A stretch of 64,000 bases of DNA from Lactobacillus sp. CBA3606 (GTDB lineage Bacteria; Bacillota; Bacilli; Lactobacillales; Lactobacillaceae): positions 124,001-188,000 of the forward strand of contig NZ_CP027194.1 of the NCBI RefSeq assembly GCF_002970935.1. Direction: 5' to 3'. Of the stretch, positions 53,369-64,000 are shown one piece after another. The translations under genes and the position numbers were made by a program. Position 1 is the first letter of the stretch; every line of letters starts with the position of its first letter. Below the pieces are notes generated by a model. It saw only the letters and a list, made by a program, of their open reading frames with translations, was not told where the DNA came from and did no database searches.

Positions 53369-53486
53369 ATGGCCAACGTCTTTCTGTAGGTATTATTACA
53401 ATCCTAACGATAGACGGCGAGCCAGTCAATAATTTGGTAAGATTCTTTAAAAATTCTGTTGATTGTGATAGTGTAATATAGTTATG

Positions 53487-53615
53487 AGCCGTTCCCGAGA
53501 GGATAAGAGGTTGGGACTGGAAACGTCACAACGGACTAGCAATGGCTATGAAAACAGTCGTGGTAGTTACTCTTAGATGCCTTGTAACCGCAATTTTTCA
53601 AGGGGGAATTTTAAA
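53487..53615 (+). promoter_or_regulatory. SMK box (SAM-III) riboswitch controlling metK
   Basis: GTTCCCGAGAGGAT (53491-53504), AGATGCCTTGTAACC (53575-53589) and AGGGGGAATT (53601-53610) match the conserved parts of the SMK box. SAM makes TTCCC pair with the Shine-Dalgarno GGGAA and blocks translation. AAGAG (53505-53509) and CTCTT (53570-53574) close an inner stem. The variable insert between them, about 60 bases, is longer than in the crystallised E. faecalis RNA. Confidence 0.92.
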
Positions 53616-54803
53616 GTGAGTGAAAGACACCTATTTACATCTGAATCAGTTTCTGAGGGCCATCCCGATAAAATCGCGGATCAAATCAGTGATGCCATTT
53701 TAGATGCCATGTTAGAACAAGATCCACAAGCTCGGGTTGCTGTTGAAACTTCAGTAACTACGGGGTTAGTATTAGTCTTTGGTGAAGTATCGACCAAAGC
53801 CTATGTTGATATTCAAAAGGTTGTGCGTGACACGATTAAATCAATTGGCTATGTTGATGGTCAATATGGGTTTGATGGTGATAACTGTGCCGTTTTAGTT
53901 TCGTTGGATGAACAATCACCAGATATTGCCCAAGGTGTTGATGATTCTTTGGAAACTCGTGAAGGTGACGCGGACCCATTGGATCAAATTGGAGCCGGCG
54001 ATCAAGGGATGATGTTTGGCTATGCCATTAACGAAACACCTGAGTTAATGCCACTTCCAATCGCTCTAAGTCATCGGTTAATGCGCCAAATTGCAACTTT
54101 GCGCAAGACTGGGACCATCAACTGGTTGCGGCCAGATGCGAAAGCGCAAGTTACGGTTGAATATGATGCTCAGAATCAACCTAAGCGGATTGATACCGTC
54201 GTCTTATCAACGCAACATGATCCTGACGTTTCGTTAACCACGATTCGGCAAACGGTGATTGATCAAGTGATTAAGGCGGTTATTCCTGCTGATTTGTTGG
54301 ATGATCAAACCAAATACTTGGTCAACCCAACTGGCCGCTTTGTTATCGGTGGCCCCCAAGGGGATGCTGGCTTAACTGGGCGGAAAGTTATCGTTGACAC
54401 TTATGGTGGGTTCGCCCATCATGGCGGCGGGGCTTTCTCTGGTAAGGATGCGACCAAAGTGGACCGTTCAGCAAGTTATGCGGCGCGCTATATTGCGAAA
54501 AATTTAGTTGCTGCTGGCTTGGCTGATCAGGTTGAAGTCCAATTAGCGTATGCTATCGGAGTTGCTGAACCAGTATCAATTGCGGTTGATACGGCTGGTA
54601 CCGGTAAGGTCAGTGATGATGCCTTAATTACAGCGATTCGCCAAAACTTTGATTTGCGGCCCGCTGGAATTATTAAAATGTTAGACTTACAACGCCCAAT
54701 TTATCGGCAAACTGCTGCGTACGGTCATTTCGGTCGGACGGATGTTGACTTGCCTTGGGAACATACTGATAAAGTAGCGGCTTTAAAAGCTGAATTTAAC
54801 TAA
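53616..54803 (+). CDS. metK: S-adenosylmethionine synthetase
   Basis: Makes SAM from methionine and ATP. The 395-residue product has the MAT signatures [20 protein letters not shown] near residue 8, [20 protein letters not shown] near 118, [20 protein letters not shown] near 270 and [20 protein letters not shown] near 345. GTG 53616 is the start: it lies 9 bases after GGGGG of the SMK box, and the earlier ATG 53577 is part of the riboswitch. Regulation by SAM is therefore at translation. Secure identification. Confidence 0.97.
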
Positions 54804-57344: not shown

Positions 57345-57590
57345 TAGCAATAACTTTACGACTCTGACAAGGACTAGTAAGCCAAGCTGATTTTCAGAAA
57401 CCTCGTGGGCGCTGAAAACGAGGAATTAGCGACGCTGAACTTACCTTCGAGTCTTCCGGCTCAACTTACAAGACGGACGTGGTTTCGCGTTAAGATTCCC
57501 AAGAGGCCACGGAAACGTGGAATCATAGGTGGTACCGCGGAACCTGTTTTCGTCCTATAAGCGCTTTTTGCTTATAGGCTTTTTTTGTAA
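57345..57590 (+). promoter_or_regulatory. T-box riboswitch for leuS, specifier CTT (Leu)
   Basis: The base of stem I is GACTC (57360-57364) with GAGTC (57449-57453). The AGTA element (57376-57379) faces GAA (57437-57439), followed by the specifier CTT (57440-57442), a leucine codon matching leuS. The T-box TGGTACCGCGG is at 57530-57540. The terminator CCTATAAGC/GCTTATAGG with a T run (57553-57590) follows. Uncharged tRNA-Leu would keep leuS on. Confidence 0.93.
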
Positions 57591-61920: not shown

Positions 61921-62664
61921 ATGATGCGAATTGATAAATTTTTACATGCGATGCGAATTGGGACCCGAACCCAAGTCCGCCGTTTGATTAAAGACGGTCA
62001 TATTACGGCCAATGGTGAGCGCGTTTTATCGGGGAAGCAACAAGTTAATCCGGTCAATGATGTGGTTAGCTTAGATGAGCAGCCTGTCAGTTATCAACAG
62101 TATTTTTATTATGTGATGAATAAACCAGTTGGGGTTATCACCGCAACGGTTGATGATCAAGCGAAGACGGTCTTGGATTTATTTAATACGACGGATTATC
62201 GTGACGACTTGTTTCCAATTGGTCGCTTAGATAAGGATACGGAAGGTGTATTGGTGATTACCAATGATGGGGCGTTGTCCCATGCCTTGTTGGCACCAGC
62301 CCATCATGTTACTAAGGTATATGAAGCTGAAGTAACTGGTGAAATTACGGCTGCGCAAGTGGCTGGTTTTAATGATGGCATTACTTTAAAAGACGGGACG
62401 CAATTGCAACCCGCAGCCGCTGAAATTGTTGCTTTTCATGAGATTGAAAACTTTACGACATTACGGATTAAAATCCATGAAGGTAAGTATCATCAAGTTA
62501 AACGGATGGTCGGGACTTTAGGCGAGCGTGTCGTGCAGTTGCGACGGATTGCCTTTGGTTCTTTAGAATTACCGGTTGGGTTACTTGCAGGTAATTACCG
62601 AGCGTTAACGGATGCTGAACTAGTGGCGTTAAAGGCGGATGCTGGGCATCCTGATGAAGATTAA
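61921..62664 (+). CDS. rRNA pseudouridine synthase, RsuA/RluB family
   Basis: A 247-residue synthase. An S4 RNA-binding domain covers residues 1-60 (RIDKFLHAMRIGTRTQVRRL, then IKDGHITANGERVLSG). The catalytic domain carries the active-site Asp in GRLDKDTEGVLVITNDGAL near residue 105. RsuA-group enzymes make pseudouridine in rRNA. It is the second gene of the flippase operon; AGGTGA overlaps its start at ATG 61921, with another ATG at 61924. The target site (16S U516 or other) is not determined. Confidence 0.9.
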   Translation: MMRIDKFLHAMRIGTRTQVRRLIKDGHITANGERVLSGKQQVNPVNDVVSLDEQPVSYQQYFYYVMNKPVGVITATVDDQAKTVLDLFNTTDYRDDLFPIGRLDKDTEGVLVITNDGALSHALLAPAHHVTKVYEAEVTGEITAAQVAGFNDGITLKDGTQLQPAAAEIVAFHEIENFTTLRIKIHEGKYHQVKRMVGTLGERVVQLRRIAFGSLELPVGLLAGNYRALTDAELVALKADAGHPDED

Positions 62665-62674
62665 GGCGTCAAAA

Positions 62675-62706
62675 AGTCTGAGTGTGACAGCTTAGGCTTT
62701 TTTTGT
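62675..62706 (+). terminator. Terminator of the flippase-rsuA operon
   Basis: AAAGTCTGAG and CTTAGGCTTT pair, followed by TTTT. Confidence 0.75.
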
Positions 62707-62714
62707 TCGATTAT

Positions 62715-62818
62715 GTGTTGCACTTCAATTGTAAATTCGTCCTTCAAACAAGTGAAAGATTACATAGATAATTAGTAGCTGTAAGATTACAGTTTTAATT
62801 CGACAAAGTGTTGCACTT
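62715..62818 (+). repeat. Direct repeat GTGTTGCACTT and palindrome upstream of the attenuator
   Basis: GTGTTGCACTT occurs at 62715-62725 and 62808-62818, 93 bases apart. Between them lies the palindrome CTGTAAGATTACAG (62779-62792). These may be regulator sites for the transporter promoter. Confidence 0.4.
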
Positions 62819-62821
62819 GGT

Positions 62822-62850
62822 TTGACAAGTCGTCACCCGTTAAATTAAAT
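62822..62850 (+). promoter_or_regulatory. Upstream promoter candidate
   Basis: TTGACA (62822-62827), 17-base spacer, TTAAAT (62845-62850). It directly follows the second GTGTTGCACTT repeat. Confidence 0.55.
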
Positions 62851-62861
62851 TTTAATTAGTA

Positions 62862-62890
62862 TTGACTTTGTAAAATGAGAATGATTTAAT
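62862..62890 (+). promoter_or_regulatory. Promoter for the leader peptide and transporter
   Basis: TTGACT (62862-62867), 17-base spacer, TTTAAT (62885-62890), 35 bases before the leader-peptide ATG. Confidence 0.65.
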
Positions 62891-62924
62891 GTAAACAACA
62901 ACAAAACGGAAAGGATCGATCGCA

Positions 62925-62981
62925 ATGACGAAACTATTACCAACTAATGCTTATTATTTTGGCTTTTATTACTTTAGGTAG
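62925..62981 (+). CDS. Aromatic-rich leader peptide, 18 aa
   Basis: ATG 62925 opens an 18-codon peptide: MTKLLPTNAYYFGFYYFR and stop TAG at 62979-62981. Seven of the last nine residues before the final Arg region are Tyr or Phe (codons 10-17: Tyr, Tyr, Phe, Gly, Phe, Tyr, Tyr, Phe). AAAGGA is about 9 bases upstream. It lies 35 bases after a promoter and is followed within one base by competing hairpins and a terminator. This is the classic layout of an attenuation leader that senses charged tRNA-Tyr/Phe. The downstream gene is an MFS transporter. That the peptide is translated is inferred. Confidence 0.75.
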   Translation: MTKLLPTNAYYFGFYYFR

Positions 62982-63157
62982 CGTTCGTATTGGTTCCTTA
63001 GATACGAACGTCACGCACGTTCGTGTCTAAGGTTAGCGAAGTCAGATTTGTCTTGGCCAGCTAGACACGGGAAGTCTAGCTGGTAATAATAGTCACTTGC
63101 ATCGTTTTTGATGAGGTGTCGCCTGCTAGATTTCTAAAATCTAGCAGGCTTTTTTTA
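62982..63157 (+). promoter_or_regulatory. Attenuator with mutually exclusive hairpins and terminator
   Basis: CGTTCGTAT (62982-62990) can pair with ATACGAACG (63002-63010). Alternatively CCTTAGATACGAACGT (62996-63011) pairs with ACGTTCGTGTCTAAGG (63017-63032) in a 16-bp stem. A second hairpin, CCAGCTAGAC/GTCTAGCTGG (63057-63083), is followed by the terminator GCCTGCTAGATTT/AAATCTAGCAGGC (63121-63149) with TTTTTTT. CCAGCTAGA can also pair with TCTAGCAGG of the terminator with one mismatch, giving an antiterminator. Confidence 0.75.
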
Positions 63158-63187
63158 TATTGTTGGACCTTTGAAGGAGGAAATGCT

Positions 63188-64000
63188 ATGACTAAGCGCC
63201 ATCGTAAAACGTTATCACTAAGCTTGTATTTAAATTACTTTGTCCACGGGTTGGGATTGATTATTTTAACGCAGAATATGCAAGCACTGAGCCATCATTG
63301 GCAAACCCCAATCGAAACGGTTTCTTATGTTATTTCAGGAATTGGGATTGGTCGGTTATTAGCTTATTTCATATTTGGGCAATTATCTGATCGATACGGT
63401 CGCAAAGTTTTCGTTAATTTAGGGATGTTAAGTTATTTTATCTTTTTCTTAGGAATGGCCTTTGTGCGCGATAGTCAAGTGGCCTATGGCTTAGCGATAT
63501 TGGCTGGGATTGCTAATTCGGCCCTTGATGCCGGTACTTATCCGACCTTCATGGAATTGAATGGCAATCAAGGTGCATCCAATGTGTTGTTAAAAGCATT
63601 CATGTCGGCCGGTGAATTTTTATTACCGCTGTTGATTGCGTCATTGGAAACGGCTCATTTATGGTATGGCTGGTCTTTCATGGTTGCCGCATTTATTTTG
63701 AGCCTTAATTTTTGGCAGTTAAATCGACAAAAATTTCCGCCAAAGAATCAAGCCTCAGCAGCAGTCGTTAAGACTAGTGCACCGTTATCAAGATTACGCC
63801 GTTGGCTAGCAACTATCGGTTTAGCTGGCTATGGTTACACCTCGATGGCATTAATGATTTTATATACGCAATGGATTAGCTTGTTTGTGACTCGTGAACT
63901 GAACTATTCGTCAATTACCGCGCACTTATTGTTGTCGCTTTATAGTATTGGGTCAATCAGTGGGGTTGTGCTCATCTTTATGAGTTTACGTTGGGGTGTC
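63188..64000 (+). CDS. MFS transporter, partial (3' end outside the window)
   Basis: From ATG 63188, with AAGGAGG 7 bases upstream, at least 271 residues are encoded. The N-terminus (LSLYLNYFVHGLGLIILTQN), the MFS signature GQLSDRYGRKVFVNLGML near residue 63 and NSALDAGTYPTFMELNG near 115 fit a 12-helix major facilitator. The substrate family is not evident. Placed after an aromatic leader peptide, it could carry an aromatic amino acid or a related precursor such as shikimate; this is inference from the leader. The frame runs past 64000. Confidence 0.85.
   Translation, partial: MTKRHRKTLSLSLYLNYFVHGLGLIILTQNMQALSHHWQTPIETVSYVISGIGIGRLLAYFIFGQLSDRYGRKVFVNLGMLSYFIFFLGMAFVRDSQVAYGLAILAGIANSALDAGTYPTFMELNGNQGASNVLLKAFMSAGEFLLPLLIASLETAHLWYGWSFMVAAFILSLNFWQLNRQKFPPKNQASAAVVKTSAPLSRLRRWLATIGLAGYGYTSMALMILYTQWISLFVTRELNYSSITAHLLLSLYSIGSISGVVLIFMSLRWGV

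Follow-up and report, generated by a model that had tools for sequence, protein, structure and literature searches.

What controls the gene that begins close to the end of a 64,000-nucleotide stretch of the Lactobacillus sp. CBA3606 genome (NZ_CP027194.1, positions 124,001 to 188,000; the whole stretch is called here the window), where a very short open reading frame (ORF) and a series of inverted repeats lie between a promoter-like sequence and the start codon? A preliminary description of the same DNA had proposed a Tyr/Phe-rich leader peptide with competing hairpins, and induction of the gene when tyrosine or phenylalanine is scarce. That proposal is supported at the level of sequence, where refuting patterns were sought and none was found: the Tyr/Phe leader and its chain of hairpins very probably turn on an aromatic amino-acid operon at Tyr/Phe shortage, and a leader-peptide switch of the attenuator type is the best overall explanation, with a probability that we put at roughly 0.85. 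With its codons exchanged, this RNA design recurs among lactic acid bacteria and related groups ahead of genes for other amino acids. The parts of the locus are the following.

62862..62890, + strand: promoter-like TTGACT (62862-62867), 17 nt, TTTAAT (62885-62890), read by eye
62908..62915, + strand: ribosome binding site (RBS) of the leader peptide, GGAAAGGA
62925..62981, + strand: leader peptide ORF, MTKLLPTNAYYFGFYYFR, 18 codons plus TAG
62957..62976, + strand: coding segment Z, inside the leader ORF (evidence: computed duplex, partner swaps, codon/K association)
62982..62990, + strand: segment A, beginning one base past the stop codon; partner B
62996..63011, + strand: segment B; partners A or C
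63017..63032, + strand: segment C; partners B or D
63029..63047, + strand: segment K, the end of C plus linker; partner Z (evidence as for Z)
63056..63069, + strand: segment D; partners C or E
63074..63084, + strand: segment E; partners D or F
63121..63133, + strand: segment F, the 5' arm of the terminator; partners E or G
63137..63156, + strand: segment G, the 3' arm of the terminator (63137-63149) plus the T tail
63188..64000, + strand: start of the regulated gene, an MFS transporter-chorismate mutase fusion of 489 residues that continues past the window (L007:689-2155)

The elements that had been claimed for this RNA are borne out. The 18-codon ORF is present and its last nine codons comprise four Tyr and three Phe, with the sensor codons at Tyr10, Tyr11, Phe12, Phe14, Tyr15, Tyr16, and Phe17; the RBS is kept in relatives; one segment (62996-63011) does have two alternative partners (62982-62990 or 63017-63032), a second pair of hairpins shares similar arms (63074-63084 pairing with 63056-63069 or with 63121-63131), and the terminator at 63121-63149 is a perfect 13 bp stem with a T tail. 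The promoter-like pair is retained in the sequences of congeners and we keep it as a by-eye reading, although a consensus promoter scan lists four other sites and not this one. The earlier layout was right in that the leader and hairpins are real, and fell short in that the chain is longer and includes part of the coding RNA.

The chain is evident in the computed duplex energies, which are -11.3 kcal/mol for A:B, -24.6 for B:C, -11.2 for C:D, -20.6 for D:E, -13.4 for E:F, and -21.9 for F:G. The remaining segment pairs give -0.4 to -5.3 kcal/mol with the exceptions of D:G (-14.3) and E:G (-10.8), which arise because D is like F and E is like G; across leaders D:G yields -10.1 with its own and -7.9 with swapped partners, as expected from the D/F likeness. 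The RNA beyond the stop codon has a folding energy of -78.3 kcal/mol, whereas 200 dinucleotide shuffles of it average -44.3 (sd 4.1, z = -8.3), and the minimum-energy fold of the window's leader is B:C + D:E + F:G. The mutually exclusive pairings are backed by covariation, and the check on stem covariation in relatives that had been set beforehand reveals compensatory changes in both alternative folds. A conserved Gly/Ser codon in the ORF is associated with its RNA partner K, and a script finds a terminator-like hairpin after all 167 distinct leaders of the wider collection described below.

The nature of the regulated genes fits the sensor codons. The target had been called an MFS transporter, which holds for the protein family (PF07690), although the gene is not an isolated one: its product has at the C-terminus a domain of chorismate mutase (PF01817, E 2.3e-18) and it heads an aromatic amino-acid operon with the order fusion gene, chorismate synthase (aroC), a prephenate dehydratase (PDT)-like gene, EPSP synthase (aroA), and prephenate dehydrogenase (tyrA), most of the fusion gene and the rest of the operon lying outside the window. 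The third gene (L007:3320-3844) encodes a divergent PDT-like protein of 175 residues without an ACT match, and its prephenate-dehydratase match is weak and below the cut-off (E 0.00078); no canonical PDT was found in the genome, and the predicted fold of a relative resembles PDT. Two adjacent MFS paralogues without the mutase part are present at G000:C1:1582727-1587119, and as a guess these and the fusion protein are possibly shikimate or quinate transporters.

In those features that can be tested in sequence, the leader appears to work like a classical attenuator, with the ribosome coupling being computed. A short ORF with an RBS ends just ahead of competing hairpins, its codons are those of amino acids made or imported by the regulated genes, an intrinsic terminator stands ahead of the first gene, and the exclusive pairings covary. 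A ribosome at the stop codon would cover A, because the ORF ends directly before it, and on the assumed footprints a ribosome stalled on the sensor codons would cover Z and leave A mostly free. For RNA ends at 63072, 63135, and 63143, the A:B + C:D fold is the minimum or within 0.8 kcal/mol of it with a ribosome at Tyr10 or Tyr11, and is unfavourable by 3.8 to 5.0 kcal/mol without a ribosome. Partition functions computed up to the terminator loop for the 167 leaders, at equilibrium only, give a higher C:D with a stalled ribosome in 133 relative to a ribosome at the stop and in 122 relative to none; E:F is higher in 117 in each comparison, and D:E is lower in 114 and 113 respectively. When A is scrambled with the ribosome stalled, C:D falls in 129/167 leaders and rises in six; when Z is scrambled without a ribosome, C:D rises in 81 and falls in 27. 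Ribosome position thus has a computed influence on the fold in most leaders, and a mixed one in the window's own.

Several observations weigh against this interpretation. With a ribosome at Tyr16/Phe17 (again on an assumed footprint) the A:B + C:D fold costs 5.0-6.9 kcal/mol at the same three ends, and at ends 63040, 63060, 63090, and 63125, as well as in the complete leader, it is disfavoured whatever the ribosome state; where E has been made and F has not (63090 and 63125) the cost is 9.6 to 12.7 kcal/mol despite a stalled ribosome. At equilibrium the complete leader adopts the terminator fold in all ribosome states, which together with the cost of A:B and C:D implies that actual switching would have to be kinetic. 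A minority of leaders respond in the opposite way or not at all, with C:D lower in the stalled state than at the stop in 6/80 and 0/87, and outside the family C:D hardly exceeds swapped partners (-7.5 vs -7.1). The leaders are related by descent, and the counts, including the codon/K association, are not independent. Attenuation at this locus is an interpretation drawn from sequence and computation, with read-through and termination both predicted. Two further candidate pairings were rejected as unsupported: one between the last codons plus stop and C (own -4.7, swapped -4.7, shuffled -3.1) and a small hairpin in the C-D linker (own -3.0, swapped -2.6, shuffled -2.8).

How far does the element extend beyond this genome? 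Among 20 congeneric genomes searched, 16 have conserved leader DNA, and the four lacking it (G001, G003, G008, and G016) also lack the MFS-chorismate mutase fusion, three having only 39-43% identical paralogues, which stop short of the mutase part, and the fourth having no match; in this comparison, also planned beforehand, the peptide is retained wherever the gene is. Of the 21 loci found, 19 were used in alignments, L032 (the match in G037) being dropped as it lies inside a long reading frame that has no leader, and L033 as it is the terminator read on the opposite strand. The peptide end YY[FY]GFxYFR is well conserved across the genus. This conservation would also suit nascent-peptide stalling, in which an antibiotic or metabolite would make the C-terminal peptide arrest the ribosome and the MFS gene would encode a drug exporter, and drug-exporter MFS models do match, weakly and far under their cut-offs. 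We nonetheless regard stalling as improbable, given that the MFS gene is joined with a chorismate mutase part and stands first in an aromatic operon, that the conserved Gly/Ser codon is tied to the RNA partner K, and that elsewhere the sensor residues shift with gene function, to IIISIIIR or LLISVIR. A drug-inducible stalling leader has a fixed arrest peptide before a resistance gene, whereas here the residues vary and the genes are amino-acid genes.

A covariance model built from the 19 leaders (R1) matches 188/397 genomes of the family, in 26 of 40 genera; the searches of many genomes used stricter filters that lose weak matches, so that these and the following counts are lower bounds. The structured RNA is still recognised when the coding part is removed, in that a model without it (R2) recovers 89/90 of the R1 loci, although this recovery is not independent, with 20 of the 90 in its seed and all 90 first found by R1. 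Recognition without the ORF is what would be expected of a riboswitch or protein-binding leader, whose hairpins would themselves sense an aromatic compound or a protein, the small ORF having no role in the response. Such an arrangement seems very unlikely, as the ORF ends just before A in 176/176 records (by a loose script, a few being evidently misparsed), its codons track the amino acid of the gene, and genes for Tyr, Phe, and Ile/Leu/Val share one scaffold, which a single ligand pocket would scarcely manage.

The probable attenuator is widespread in the order, in which a broad model (R3) matches 245/395 genomes and 62 of 80 genera with up to five copies per genome. It matches 28/299 genomes in a class sample, seven of them outside the order, and 3/249 in a phylum sample, these being the genome itself, one of the order, and one marginal match (E 0.008), which makes the phylum sample a useful negative control; no claim is made for the weak matches of 78-81 bases (E 0.003) that family f24 gave at class level. 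A pattern scan of named genomes yields at least 119 stretches, and among the 80 stretches listed, all of them scanned, 65 have an R3 match at E 0.01, including Streptococcus, Sporolactobacillus, Vagococcus, Jeotgalicoccus, Aliicoccus, lactobacilli, the Aerococcaceae Ruoffia and Eremococcus, and three Clostridium or Eubacterium records; the 15 without comprise ten from other phyla (e.g. Chitinophagaceae and Pseudoalteromonas) and five Firmicutes, one a Ligilactobacillus. The Clostridium/Eubacterium elements (L289, L313, and L345, the last read by eye) have FFSYFR-type ends and precede a gene whose N-terminus resembles that of a sodium-dependent amino-acid symporter. The leader has no match in a phage collection and one in a plasmid collection. 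A copy before aroE (L071, G075:C1) lies on a 343,860-base contig, and a Nicoliella spurrieriana plasmid record matches at the same place. Two loci carry two elements, each preceding its own gene: L249, where the genes are TrpX-like, and L343, with two unlike endings (YYYGYFR and FFNNYFR).

The relationship between sensor codons and downstream genes was followed in 88 family loci, with first genes clustered and cluster representatives identified: 61 are MFS and/or chorismate mutase, six aroE, one aroA, one aroK, 11 TrpX-like ABC substrate-binding proteins (scoring below the NCBIfam TrpX cut-off), seven PDT-like, and one unclear. Tyr is missing from the last 11 residues in all 18 TrpX-like and PDT-like leaders and present in all 70 others (Fisher 4e-19, ignoring shared descent). 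Outside the family, TrpX-like genes mostly have Tyr plus Phe leaders by inspection, which limits the Phe-only rule to the family. Endings with Ile or Leu/Ile/Val (IISIIR, IIISIIIR, NLLISVIR, NLLLISVIR) occur at 13 loci of the order and class, 12 by a strict rule plus L237, and every one has a branched-chain gene within its first three: PALP or threonine ammonia-lyase (L156, L241, and L248, with L241 above the TIGR01127 cut-off), a LivJ-like binding protein as first gene (L159, L236, L239, L247, L252, and L253) or third gene (L237), a branched-chain aminotransferase (L235), both subunits of acetolactate synthase (L242), or its small subunit (L244). Other endings also agree with the pathway: transketolase follows YYYFGWFS (L266), a canonical prephenate dehydratase follows FFFSDFR (L268), and aroE, DAHP synthase, and aroB follow NYYFSYFR (L154). 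No aromatic leader was seen before a branched-chain gene among the genes identified. The third planned check, on conservation of the Tyr/Phe codons, thus finds that general aromatic genes retain them in their leaders and that other genes have different codons in their place. The leaders come from the loose ORF script (176 records, 167 distinct after merging identical peptides), and its readings were kept throughout: L121 and L132 are one locus fetched twice, without a convincing leader start and with an unclear first gene, L209 and L255 are read with a later stop than their relatives, and in L229, L249, and L267 the reading stops sooner, which may be real.

We think it likely that all of these derive from one ancient codon-programmed scaffold, a second, translation-based counterpart of the T-box in Lactobacillales and a few neighbours, whose copies were duplicated and, through exchange of sensor codons, redirected among genes for Tyr, Phe, Trp, Ile, Leu, and Val, with the coding RNA as a switch segment and read-through needing a ribosome that is present and stalled. 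In Firmicutes, the control of amino-acid genes by starvation is mainly ascribed to T-boxes, and leader peptides to proteobacteria, of which pheA, trp, and his are the classical attenuators. These share with the present element an amino-acid-rich short peptide, an intrinsic terminator, exclusive hairpins, and a coupling to ribosome position that is computed in the present case; here the phylum is another, the relay is longer (A-G plus linker K and coding segment Z, where the his leader has six lettered segments), and one conserved scaffold serves several amino acids, the comparison being of layout and not of sequence relation. T-boxes would share the starvation response predicted here, occur in the same organisms, and likewise have several specificities on one scaffold, but they bind uncharged tRNA directly and without translation. 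The leader is not a T-box: none is found at 62600-63400 up to E 5, and the only one in the window lies at 57355-57560.

No published account of a shared scaffold or family was recognised in the open-licence PMC literature, although an earlier description is possible, for instance in comparative studies of how low-GC Gram-positive bacteria regulate their aromatic amino-acid genes. Word searches gave no matches in PMC3166299 and PMC7724050 and two unrelated passages in PMC4438229, and PMC2494555 is concerned with T-boxes. Ribosome-mediated attenuation of amino-acid genes has been described or predicted in Firmicutes, judging from the parts of these sources available, for a Leu/Ile attenuator of Staphylococcus aureus ilvD (PMC5794164), for hisS leaders of bacilli (PMC2965389, which remarks that regular leader peptides are noticeable in Firmicutes), and for branched-chain genes of L. 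lactis (Godon 1992, via citing literature); each was reported for a single gene or group, and some may belong to the present scaffold. The uORFC-13-1 element before Acholeplasma aroF, as excerpted from PMC8632094, similarly has an upstream ORF with Phe, then a terminator and a shikimate-pathway gene; it is reported there only from Acholeplasma and environmental sequences and is likened here by description.

Rfam offers a different classification. The window's leader (L013) has no gathering-score match to RF02863 or any other family, and its two sub-threshold matches are to unrelated families; RF02863 (Enterococcus sRNA 2410), filed as a small RNA gene, overlaps the element in six of 29 related loci scanned, and from its name and length it likely derives from PMC5593968. 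The terminated leader might accordingly be mainly a trans-acting small RNA, and the available text of that paper gives a 195-nt sRNA_2410 with two Northern transcripts and induction by daptomycin (2.3- and 4.1-fold by RNA-seq and qPCR). We find little likelihood in this: the inspected elements sit upstream of amino-acid genes with matching codons, attenuation itself yields a terminated leader of such length, and the words 'attenuat' and 'leader' are absent from the main text of PMC5593968 as available. The agreement of the 195 nt with the terminated-leader length lends indirect support to attenuation.

One leader-peptide design is thus seen in 62 of 80 sampled genera of a single order. If the attenuator interpretation is true, this scaffold, hitherto filed only in pieces such as Enterococcus sRNA 2410, would recast an Rfam small RNA family as an attenuator. 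It would also offer codon-level predictions of specificity for TrpX-like ABC transporters, for the divergent prephenate-dehydratase-like protein, and for the many leaders that lack annotation, and the sensor codons could be used in food bacteria to sense amino acids by natural means that can be reprogrammed.

Elsewhere in the window, the T-box at 57355-57560 is an ordinary one and a SAM-III riboswitch is present at 53477-53618. Upstream of the leader there are two copies (62697-62742 and 62791-62835) of an imperfect intergenic repeat of about 40 bases around TGTTGCACTT, which has five further matching places in the genome.
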